This document shows, one piece after another, positions 4,284-25,109 of a stretch of 64,000 nt of DNA. Origin of the DNA: an uncultured Pelagibacteraceae bacterium (GTDB lineage Bacteria; Pseudomonadota; Alphaproteobacteria; Pelagibacterales; Pelagibacteraceae); contig CACKGK010000004.1 in the NCBI GenBank assembly GCA_902599665.1, positions 45,664 to 109,663 of the forward strand, given 5' to 3'. Position 1 is the stretch's first letter, and the number at the start of each line of letters is the position of its first letter. Under the pieces are notes generated by a model. The model searched no databases and was not told the DNA's origin. It was given only the letters and a program-made list of their open reading frames with translations. The position numbers were made by a program, and so were the translations under genes.

Positions 4284-4308
4284 TGGCGACTATAATATAT
4301 AGTCGCCA
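4284..4308 (+). promoter_or_regulatory. intercistronic hairpin between SBP and permease genes (no U-tract)
   Basis: perfect 11-bp inverted repeat TGGCGACTATA-ATA-TATAGTCGCCA. Confidence 0.8.
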
Positions 4309-4314
4309 GTCTAT

Positions 4315-5007
4315 ATGGAACTTCTATCATTTGGAGATAATGGTTGGGGAGATGAGCTTTTCTTTGCAACCCTAATGACAATTGCTGTTTCAATTACAGC
4401 AATGGCAATTGGGTTTTTATTCGCTTTAATTTTTACTCCATTAAAATTATCTAAAAATAAAACATTAAATTTTATTGGTAATTGTTACACTACAATTATT
4501 AGAGGCGTTCCAGAACTATTAGTAATTTATCTATTATTTTTTGGTGGTACAGGAGCTGCTATGTATGTAGCATCCATTTTTGGATACGATGGTTATATCG
4601 AGATAAACTCATTTATAACAGGTGCTCTTGCAATAGGAATTATATCAGGAGCATATTCTACAGAAGTTTTTAGGGGTGCAATATTATCAATTGATAAAGG
4701 TCAATTTGAAGCCTCAAAAGTTTTAGGAATAAAAAAAAGTATTCAATTTTACAAAATTATTTTACCGCAAATGTTGAGGCTATCAATTCCAAACCTTAGC
4801 AATGTTTGGCAAATAACTTTAAAAGATACTTCTTTAATTTCTGTAACAGGATTAGTGGAGATAATGAGGCAATCTTATATTGCCGCTGGTTCAACTAGAG
4901 ACCCTTTATTTTTTTATTCAGTGGCAGCAGTCATATATTTAATGCTTACCTTCTTAAGTATGAAATTAATTAATAAATTAGAAGTAAAATATAGTAAAGG
5001 ATACTGA
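4315..5007 (+). CDS. amino-acid ABC transporter permease (HisQ/OccQ-type)
   Basis: multi-TM; EVFRGAILSIDKGQFEASKVLGIKKSIQFYKIILPQMLRLSIP permease loop. Confidence 0.9.
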   Translation: MELLSFGDNGWGDELFFATLMTIAVSITAMAIGFLFALIFTPLKLSKNKTLNFIGNCYTTIIRGVPELLVIYLLFFGGTGAAMYVASIFGYDGYIEINSFITGALAIGIISGAYSTEVFRGAILSIDKGQFEASKVLGIKKSIQFYKIILPQMLRLSIPNLSNVWQITLKDTSLISVTGLVEIMRQSYIAAGSTRDPLFFYSVAAVIYLMLTFLSMKLINKLEVKYSKGY

Positions 5008-10735: not shown

Positions 10736-10783
10736 AGAGCAGTGAATATAAATACTACAAAAGTTATATCACTGCTCTTTTTT
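10736..10783 (+). terminator. intrinsic terminator/attenuator between tctC and tctB, overlapping the tctB start
   Basis: AGAGCAGTG (10736-10744) / CACTGCTCT (10770-10778) stem followed by a T-run. Confidence 0.75.
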
Positions 10784-22222: not shown

Positions 22223-23233
22223 ATGTTAAAAAAAATAAGTTTTTATTTCACAACATTATTTTTAGCTTTCTCATTAATTGGATCAGCATACGCTGTGACA
22301 CTAAAAGCAAGTCATCAATGGCCTGGAACGCCTAGAGCTGATGGCTCTTATGATCCAAGACATGAAATGGTTCAAATAATTGCAGATGAAGTTAAAAAAG
22401 CAGGAGTAGATTTAGATATTAGAATTTATCCAGCAAAATCATTATATAAACCTAAAGAGCAGTGGAAACCAATGACAACTGGTCAGTTGGATATTTCAGC
22501 ATTTCCATTAGCGTACGCATCAAAATTCCATCCAGAATTTGATGCAACTTTAATGCCAGGAACAGTTAAAAATCATGACCATGCACTAAGATTTAATAAG
22601 GGTCCAATGATGACTGAAATTAAGAGAATTATAAATGATGCTGGTGTTGTTGTTCTATCTGATGCTTGGCTTGGTGGAGGTTTTGCATCTAAGTCAAAAT
22701 GTATTAAAAATCCATCAGATGCTAAAGGACAAGTAATGAGAGCAGCTGGTAAAGCTTTTAACCAAATGTTAGAGGCAGCTGGCGCTGGTATTCAAAGTAT
22801 GCCTTCATCAGAAATTTATACTGGATTGCAAACTGGAGTATTAACAGGTGCAAATACTAGCTCAGGAAGTTTTGTTAGTTATAAAATTTATGAGCAAGTA
22901 ACGTGCGCAACTCCTCCAGGTAAGTTTGGATTGTGGTTTATGTATGAGCCAATTTTGATGTCAAAAATGAGCTTTGATAAATTAAATTCAAAACAACAAG
23001 ATGCTTTAATGAAAGCTGGTAAAGTTGCTGAAAAATATATGACTGCGCAAGTTGAAAATTTAGATAAAAAATTTGAAGACGCTTATAAAGCAGCAGGAGT
23101 AAAATTAGTATATATGGATGCAAACGACCATGCGGCTTGGGTTGAGATTGCTAAACAATCTTCACATAAAGCATTTGCTGAAAAAGTTCCAGGTGGCGAT
23201 AAGCTAATGGAAATGGCTTTAGCAGTTAAATAA
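22223..23233 (+). CDS. TRAP transporter substrate-binding protein (DctP family)
   Basis: signal peptide; EMVQIIADEVKKAG..DIRIYPAKSLYKPKEQWKPMTTGQLDISAFP. Confidence 0.9.
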   Translation: MLKKISFYFTTLFLAFSLIGSAYAVTLKASHQWPGTPRADGSYDPRHEMVQIIADEVKKAGVDLDIRIYPAKSLYKPKEQWKPMTTGQLDISAFPLAYASKFHPEFDATLMPGTVKNHDHALRFNKGPMMTEIKRIINDAGVVVLSDAWLGGGFASKSKCIKNPSDAKGQVMRAAGKAFNQMLEAAGAGIQSMPSSEIYTGLQTGVLTGANTSSGSFVSYKIYEQVTCATPPGKFGLWFMYEPILMSKMSFDKLNSKQQDALMKAGKVAEKYMTAQVENLDKKFEDAYKAAGVKLVYMDANDHAAWVEIAKQSSHKAFAEKVPGGDKLMEMALAVK

Positions 23234-23247
23234 AAAGATATATAAAG

Positions 23248-23283
23248 AACCCCTATTTAAAATATTAAATAGGGGTTTTTTTT
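23248..23283 (+). terminator. intrinsic terminator/attenuator between TRAP SBP and small permease genes
   Basis: perfect 13-bp stem AACCCCTATTTAA-AATA-TTAAATAGGGGTT running into a T-tract that ends at the downstream ATG. Confidence 0.88.
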
Positions 23284-23778
23284 ATGAAACAAAAATATTT
23301 AAAATTCTGTAACTTTAGCTCACAAGCATGTGGTGCTTTTGCTGTTTTAGCTCTACTCCTATCAATCTTGGTTATTGTCGAATTAGTTTTTGAAAGATAT
23401 TTCTTTCAAAGAGCAATCACTTGGCAAACAGAGCTAGTAACAATGCTTTTAGTTGCTTCAACTTTTATAGGAAGCGCGTATGTTTTAAGTGAAAAGGCAC
23501 ATGTTAGCATGGAATGGATTTATGACTTTTTATCAAAGAAAAACATTCTTAGACTTAAAATTTTCACATCACTAATAAGTTTATTATTTTTTTTAATCTT
23601 ATTTTATTTTGGATATTTAATGGTTGAGGAAGCGTTTACAAAAAACTATTCAACAGGAACTGTTTGGGATCCTCCTTTATGGATACCTTATTCTTCAATG
23701 ATGATTGGGGCAGCCTTGATGATCCTTCAATATATTGCCGAAATAATCAAACTTATCGACGAAGAGGGTGGTCACTAA
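23284..23778 (+). CDS. TRAP transporter small permease (DctQ family)
   Basis: 4-TM; WQTELVTMLLVASTFIGSAYVLSEKAHVSMEW. Confidence 0.88.
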   Translation: MKQKYLKFCNFSSQACGAFAVLALLLSILVIVELVFERYFFQRAITWQTELVTMLLVASTFIGSAYVLSEKAHVSMEWIYDFLSKKNILRLKIFTSLISLLFFLILFYFGYLMVEEAFTKNYSTGTVWDPPLWIPYSSMMIGAALMILQYIAEIIKLIDEEGGH

Positions 23779-25109
23779 TGGATCCATTATTAATAGCAAT
23801 CATCGTTGCTGTTTTCACTTTAGTAGTTTTATTTTCTGGAATACCAATTGCATTTGGTTTGAGCTTTGTCTCTATAACATTGTTAGTTGCATTTGAAGGT
23901 TTTCAAATGCTAGATGTTTTTGCCGAAACATTTTACGCAGGACTAAACTCTTTTGTTTTGCTTTCAATTCCTATGTTTATTTTAATGGGAATGGCAGTTG
24001 CCAACTCACCAGCAGGAAAAGATCTATATACAGGATTAGATAGATGGCTTTGGAGAGTACCAGGCGGATTAGTAATTTCTAATATAGGTGCTTGTTCAAT
24101 ATTTGCAGCTTTAAGTGGATCAAGTCCTGCAACATGTGCAGCAATTGGAACTATGGGAATACCTGAGATGAGAAAAAGAGGGTATTCAGATCAAATTGCA
24201 ACAGGAACAATAGCAGCTGGTGGTACGCTAGGAGTTTTAATTCCTCCTAGCATTGTTTTAATTGTTTATGGAATTGCTACAGGAACATCAATTGGAAGAT
24301 TATTCTTAAGTGGCTTGATACCTGGATTTATGTTAGCAGGTATGTTTGCTATATGGGCTCTCATACATAGTTATTTCATTGATAAAGATTCAGCAAAAGC
24401 CTTAAAGAACAGAACACCTCCAACTTTTAAAGAGAAAATTGAAGTCTTGCCAAGAATATTACCTTTCTTAGCAATCATAGCTGGTGTTCTTTATGTTTTG
24501 TATGGTGGAGTAGCCACACCTTCTGAGGCATCTGGTGTTGGAGCTTTTTTGGTTTTTGTATTAATAGCTGTAGTTTACAAAATTTATCAACCAAAGAAAA
24601 TCTGGAACATTGTTAAAGTATCCATGAAAGAAAGTGTGATGATAATGTTTATCATCGCTGCATCTTATCTATTCGCATTCACATTATCTCAGCTTTATGT
24701 AACTCAATCATTAGCACAAAGCATGGTAGAACTAAGTTCTAATAAATGGGTTGTATTTATTTTAATTAATATTTTTCTATTAATAGCGGGTTTCTTTTTG
24801 CCTCCTGTTGCTGTTATTGTGATGACTTCAGCAATATTGCTCCCGGTTATAACTACTTTGGGCTTCGACCCTTATTGGTTTGCAATTGTATTTACAATAA
24901 ATATGGAAATTGGTCTTATTACGCCACCTGTTGGATTAAACCTTTACATAATCAAAGGCATTACACCAGACGTAAGTCTGTCAGAAATATTAAAGGGATC
25001 TATACCATTTATGATAATTATGGCTCTAGCTATATTAATTTTGTGTATTTTTCCCGAAATAGTTACTTGGTTGCCAGATAAAATAATGGGTAAAAGTTTA
25101 GGTTTTTAA
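23778..25109 (+). CDS. TRAP transporter large permease (DctM family)
   Basis: SIPMFILMGMAVANSPAG; GTLGVLIPPSIVLIVYG; ATG at 23778 used instead of ORF start 23664. Confidence 0.92.
   Translation: MDPLLIAIIVAVFTLVVLFSGIPIAFGLSFVSITLLVAFEGFQMLDVFAETFYAGLNSFVLLSIPMFILMGMAVANSPAGKDLYTGLDRWLWRVPGGLVISNIGACSIFAALSGSSPATCAAIGTMGIPEMRKRGYSDQIATGTIAAGGTLGVLIPPSIVLIVYGIATGTSIGRLFLSGLIPGFMLAGMFAIWALIHSYFIDKDSAKALKNRTPPTFKEKIEVLPRILPFLAIIAGVLYVLYGGVATPSEASGVGAFLVFVLIAVVYKIYQPKKIWNIVKVSMKESVMIMFIIAASYLFAFTLSQLYVTQSLAQSMVELSSNKWVVFILINIFLLIAGFFLPPVAVIVMTSAILLPVITTLGFDPYWFAIVFTINMEIGLITPPVGLNLYIIKGITPDVSLSEILKGSIPFMIIMALAILILCIFPEIVTWLPDKIMGKSLGF

Follow-up and report, generated by a model that had tools for sequence, protein, structure and literature searches.

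Hairpins at the 3' ends of substrate-binding protein genes in a Pelagibacteraceae lineage, and a terminator-like example between dctP and dctQ

What an apparent intrinsic terminator does inside an operon is the question raised by the TRAP transporter genes of an uncultured Pelagibacteraceae bacterium, in which a hairpin and a T-run separate the substrate-binding protein (SBP) gene dctP from dctQ. In the initial annotation of the window (the whole 64-kb stretch of DNA analyzed), this junction was described as a perfect 13-bp stem with an AATA loop and a T-run touching the ATG at 23284, and the sequence is exactly so. The operon and the elements of the junction are as follows:

22223–23233, + strand: dctP, TRAP transporter substrate-binding protein, 336 aa (NCBIfam NF037995 TRAP_S1, E 3e-35; PF03480)
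23231–23233, + strand: dctP stop codon TAA
23248–23260, + strand: 5' arm of the hairpin, AACCCCTATTTAA, starting 14 nt past the dctP stop
23261–23264, + strand: hairpin loop AATA
23265–23277, + strand: 3' arm of the hairpin, TTAAATAGGGGTT, containing AGGGG, 8 nt upstream of the ATG, a possible Shine-Dalgarno-like stretch
23276–23283, + strand: T8 U-tract, directly abutting the dctQ ATG at 23284
23284–23778, + strand: dctQ, small TRAP membrane subunit, 164 aa (open reading frame and position; N terminus conserved from the 23284 ATG in orthologues)
23778–25109, + strand: dctM, large TRAP membrane subunit (position and sequence appearance)

The identities of DctP and of the ABC SBP are profile matches, while DctQ, DctM, TctA and TctB were assigned by position and sequence appearance. 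The dctM ATG overlaps the dctQ stop codon (TAATG).

Structure and conservation of the dctP-dctQ hairpin

The perfect 13-bp stem folded at −21.6 kcal/mol, compared to −7.1 ± 2.6 kcal/mol for 200 dinucleotide shuffles (z = −5.64), none of which folded as well. The same element was returned by an inverted-repeat search (21 nt, 90%, 4-nt loop), and a simple scan listed it on the minus strand only. Two residues of the T8 are paired within the stem and six lie beyond it; at least 7 T within the 8 nt upstream of an ATG were found for just 6 of 454 genes. The 3' arm ends 6 nt from the ATG, with nothing else to serve as a leader; the initial annotation had described the dctQ leader as the terminator itself. 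The terminator also leaves no space for a promoter between itself and the ATG.

Apart from the window's own genome, 18 genomes out of 60 relatives have an orthologous dctP (78 to 100% DctP identity). The hairpin, the T-run and the ATG were kept at all 19 junctions of the genus, with the ATG placed directly after the T-run or, in two cases, a few bases later. The T-run varies in length among the orthologues regardless of frame and is therefore not coding. When 18 of the 19 orthologous junctions were aligned, 98.5% of the cells paired, three stem pairs showed compensatory double changes, and the GGGG of the 3' arm was invariant across all aligned orthologues. Pairing fell to 31 to 65% when the partners were slid by one to three columns. 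In a shuffle control, the covariation score and the fraction of paired cells were matched in 0 of 500 shuffles, while the count of doubly changed pairs gave a weaker result (29/500).

On the sense strand the wobbles read U-G; on the other strand they would be A-C, indicating that selection acts on the sense RNA. On the same grounds, an antisense or DNA-level function of the hairpin was rejected. A REP-type repeated palindrome was rejected as well, since a genome search with an 801-bp query returned no second copy of the hairpin sequence other than its own reverse complement; further, the hairpin sequences of SBP genes differ between families. No Rfam family was matched within the 64-kb window.

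Hairpins after SBP genes in the genus and beyond

The initial annotation had further suggested that hairpins behind SBP genes are a general rule in this lineage. SBP genes belonging to six families, with PstS and PhnD among those left out, were collected in 41 genomes of the genus, which are assigned to SAR11 by their small size, AT richness and gene content. For comparison, we took the non-SBP genes of these loci and of the window, along with those in 400 kb of one complete genome sampled as evenly spaced stretches. A hairpin was counted at ≤ −10 kcal/mol within 80 nt of the stop codon. The energy thresholds were fixed before the control counts and after the window had been seen; genes were called by a simple script, and many of the genomes are incomplete.

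Within the genus, a hairpin followed 216 of 226 SBP genes, compared to 27 of 841 other genes. When only co-directional neighbors 20 to 120 nt apart were considered, the frequency was 97% for SBP genes (194/201) and 3% for non-SBP genes (5/181), far higher after SBP genes than after other genes within operons, and this contrast was stable for thresholds from −8 to −16 kcal/mol. Terminator-like hairpins were present at 137 of the 201 gap-matched SBP genes and at 4 of the 181 non-SBP genes. Non-SBP co-directional genes in the same loci carried a hairpin in just 3 of 408 cases, and the median shuffle z-scores were −4.75 for SBP genes and −0.02 for the others. As orthologues are not independent, a count by family is safer than a count by gene; 46 of 50 SBP families (50% identity) carry the hairpin.

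The suggested rule therefore holds strongly, and it extends to a sister family of the order, in which 35 of 36 SBP genes carried a hairpin compared to 12 of 281 others, at least 3 of these 12 looking like SBP genes missed by detection. Elsewhere in the Alphaproteobacteria, a significant hairpin (z ≤ −3) was found at 16 of 48 DctP genes and, by crude gene calls, at about 4% of neighboring genes. With a hairpin at about a third of these DctP genes, the SAR11-type pattern appears as the extreme of a wider tendency.

Several of the exceptions without a hairpin did not look like transport SBPs by eye. Examples are Peripla_BP_6-fold genes, possibly LpoA-like, that sit beside an RsmI-like gene, an SBP_bac_3 protein that lacks a signal-like start, and another, short SBP_bac_3 protein with no obvious permease following. 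One real TRAP SBP family (EIVGRLSVHWSPKHHSAKHA; L024, L026, L031 and L234) had no hairpin before dctQ in any of its four members.

The other two importers of the window had been credited with the same order of SBP gene, hairpin and permease:

4284–4294 and 4298–4308, + strand: 11-bp hairpin with loop ATA at the SBP/permease junction of the amino-acid ABC importer; no U-tract; permease ATG at 4315
10736–10783, + strand: hairpin after tctC of the TTT importer (10736–10778), then T6, lying in the opening codons of the predicted tctB (GTG at 10742)

This layout is true of all three importers, with two corrections: the ABC hairpin lacks a U-tract, and the TTT hairpin is not intergenic but falls within the predicted start of tctB. 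The ABC hairpin was retained in all 29 members of its SBP family, a U-tract being scored in 3 of them. At orthologous amino-acid ABC junctions of two families of the order (4284–4308 in the window; L274–L298), the hairpins are unrelated, without a U-tract in the window's genus and with a long U-tract in the sister family. Judged by its sequence, the TTT hairpin with its U-tract is a terminator-like element inside a predicted coding sequence. Two different TTT systems have a hairpin and a U-tract within the first 20 to 25 codons of the predicted tctB (for example MNNVQKQKRANKSLPFFF); the loci concerned are 10736–10783 of the window, L069, L071, L075, L080, L087 and L089, and the frame is open across orthologues.

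U-tracts and possible modes of action

The U content past the stem is bimodal among the SBP families. In 23 of 46 families, the 10 nt that follow the GC core contain at least 7 T (as do 7% of background windows), while 18 families average 5 or fewer; overall, a U-tract accompanies about half to two thirds of the SBP hairpins. Additionally, a hairpin was found at 13 of 15 SBP genes that have no co-directional gene after them and face a convergent neighbor. Among the 18 non-SBP convergent genes with a hairpin, 10 are the partners of convergent SBP genes and read the same hairpin. As hairpins occur both without a U-tract and without a co-directional gene behind them, the shared element is the 3'-end hairpin of the SBP message and not the U-tract, and lowering the permease cannot be the sole function. 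In the 64-kb window, no strong intrinsic terminator was found at any convergent gene end, so that most termination there is probably Rho-dependent; the genus has a rho gene, and thus both routes to 3' ends exist.

On the observed structure, conservation, covariation and SBP specificity, we consider it likely that the dctP-dctQ hairpin is a 3'-end element of the dctP message and at the same time a leaky intrinsic terminator. From this we infer partial termination, read-through, protection of the mRNA and the resulting protein ratio. The hairpin would form just past the footprint of a ribosome finishing at the dctP stop, and the U-tract would release most transcripts right before the dctQ ATG, leaving a dctP mRNA whose 3' end is protected. 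The smaller share of transcripts that reads through would supply dctQM, and on these the re-formed hairpin, ending 6 to 8 nt before the ATG, should also lower the translation of dctQ. The outcome would be more binding protein than membrane subunits. Read-through has to be assumed here, as a 13-bp stem with six free U might terminate so well that dctQM starves. Almost every SBP gene of the lineage may reach the same outcome, about half to two thirds of them through a hairpin of the terminator type and the others through a protection or processing type that lacks a U-tract.

Partial termination had been put forward as the source of high SBP and low permease levels, and for the TRAP junction, with its U-tract kept in 19 of 19 orthologues, the sequence makes this a good reading. 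As a general mechanism it falls short, given near-background U content in about half of the SBP families, the ABC junction without a U-tract and the hairpins of convergent SBP genes. Partial termination would fit the TRAP and TTT junctions and 3' protection would fit all of them; either would give SBP excess. The function common to all is best seen as safeguarding the 3' end of an abundant message, to which partial termination is probably added where a U-tract exists.

The strongest competitor is selective stabilization, in which the whole of dctPQM would be transcribed, an endonuclease would cut in dctQM and the hairpin would block 3'-5' exonucleases, so that the dctP part survives as in the malE and puf systems and the U-tract is incidental. 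It draws on the same families with near-background U content, including the window's ABC junction, on the orthologous ABC junctions at which the hairpin persists while the U-tract comes and goes, and on the E. coli ABC-importer operons with differential decay, in which the SBP gene is invariably the stabilized one (PMC5927463). The expected 3' hairpin on the favored gene is present at dctP, and a hairpin without a terminator-type U-tract is found at the ABC junction. The T8 at dctP-dctQ departs from this expectation, the T-run is kept in every TRAP orthologue and U-tracts are in clear excess across families, whereas a pure stabilizer needs none. The junction instead has what is expected of an intra-operon terminator, namely a stable G+C-containing stem-loop directly after the SBP gene with a co-directional permease, and a U-tract immediately 3' of the stem at above-background level. 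As the U-tract is kept throughout at the TRAP junction, leaky termination is the leading reading there, and we regard stabilization as its sole explanation as rather unlikely.

The position of the 3' arm, 6 nt before the ATG in the only leader available, together with its invariant GGGG, would also suit a hairpin that hides the dctQ ribosome-binding site (AGGGG), with DctQ made weakly or through coupling to dctP translation. This is improbable: the Shine-Dalgarno signal is weak in the lineage, the ABC hairpin also adjoins a start codon yet has no G-rich 3' arm, and hairpins are present where no co-directional gene follows. Even less credit is due to complete termination, by which dctP would be monocistronic and dctQM would be transcribed from a promoter inside the 3' end of dctP. 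The strong predicted stem and U-tract speak for it, but none of the listed sigma70-like sites falls on the + strand between 22.2 and 23.5 kb (the SAR11 consensus may differ), and a transcript beginning within dctP would meet the terminator all the same.

Beyond the leaky terminator proposed for this junction, SBP excess over the transporter may be hard-wired gene by gene in SAR11-type bacteria. In ABC, TRAP and TTT importers alike, the SBP:permease ratio would then be set by the stem and U-tract of the 3' hairpin that each SBP gene carries, and these hairpins would be nearly the only class of strong gene-end hairpin in the genome. We give this broader proposal an even chance.

Known systems and significance

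An intercistronic stem-loop in the puf operon of Rhodobacter capsulatus was reportedly recognized as an mRNA decay terminator by Chen et al. in 1988. Both puf and dctP-dctQ have an alphaproteobacterial intercistronic hairpin; puf, however, is not an importer operon.

A close likeness is with cellulolytic Clostridia, in which a hairpin also follows the SBP gene of importer operons and SBP excess over the translocator by partial termination has been measured, the internal intrinsic terminators after ABC SBP genes having efficiencies of 20.7 to 96.1% (Wu et al. 2022, PMC9045158). The clostridial cases are confined to ABC importers and their hairpins tend to a lower U content, whereas the present lineage includes TRAP and TTT importers, full T-runs that abut or enter the next gene, and near-universality. 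Differential decay of malEFG in E. coli likewise favors the SBP, protected by a 3' structure whatever its position in the operon, but that study left out gene pairs separated by an intrinsic terminator motif (Dar and Sorek 2018, PMC5927463), and dctP-dctQ has a terminator-type U-tract. Stem-loops of selective RNA processing and stabilization operons have been divided into stabilizers, stabilizer-terminators and terminators (PMC8219983). These classes match the kinds of SBP hairpin seen here, and by the rules of that scheme the poly(U) tail of dctP-dctQ points to the terminators, not the stabilizers. The principle is thus already known for ABC importers from Clostridia and E. coli; new, as far as the open-access papers searched show, are its extension to TRAP and TTT importers, its near-universality in a lineage and U-tracts that form the leader or the first codons of the next gene. 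Those papers likewise contained no SBP-hairpin rule for SAR11, nor one for importers of the TRAP or TTT type.

A published model of SAR11 uptake predicts that nanomolar affinities are reached through a high ratio of binding protein to transport units (about 7 at 1 nM), and its authors ask for binding-protein abundance to be studied experimentally (PMC8168909). A 3' hairpin that is SBP-specific and nearly universal would be a genetic device producing this ratio, and one that can be read from the sequence. In uncultured genomes, it could also assist in spotting SBP genes and in ranking their expression against that of the permease.

A few non-SBP genes in the evenly spaced stretches also have a strong 3' hairpin (L217:14098–14866 on the + strand; L233, L215 and L229 on the − strand). 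By eye, these look like genes for proteorhodopsin, a porin, Hsp20 and a lipoprotein, which are probably highly expressed and their products abundant.
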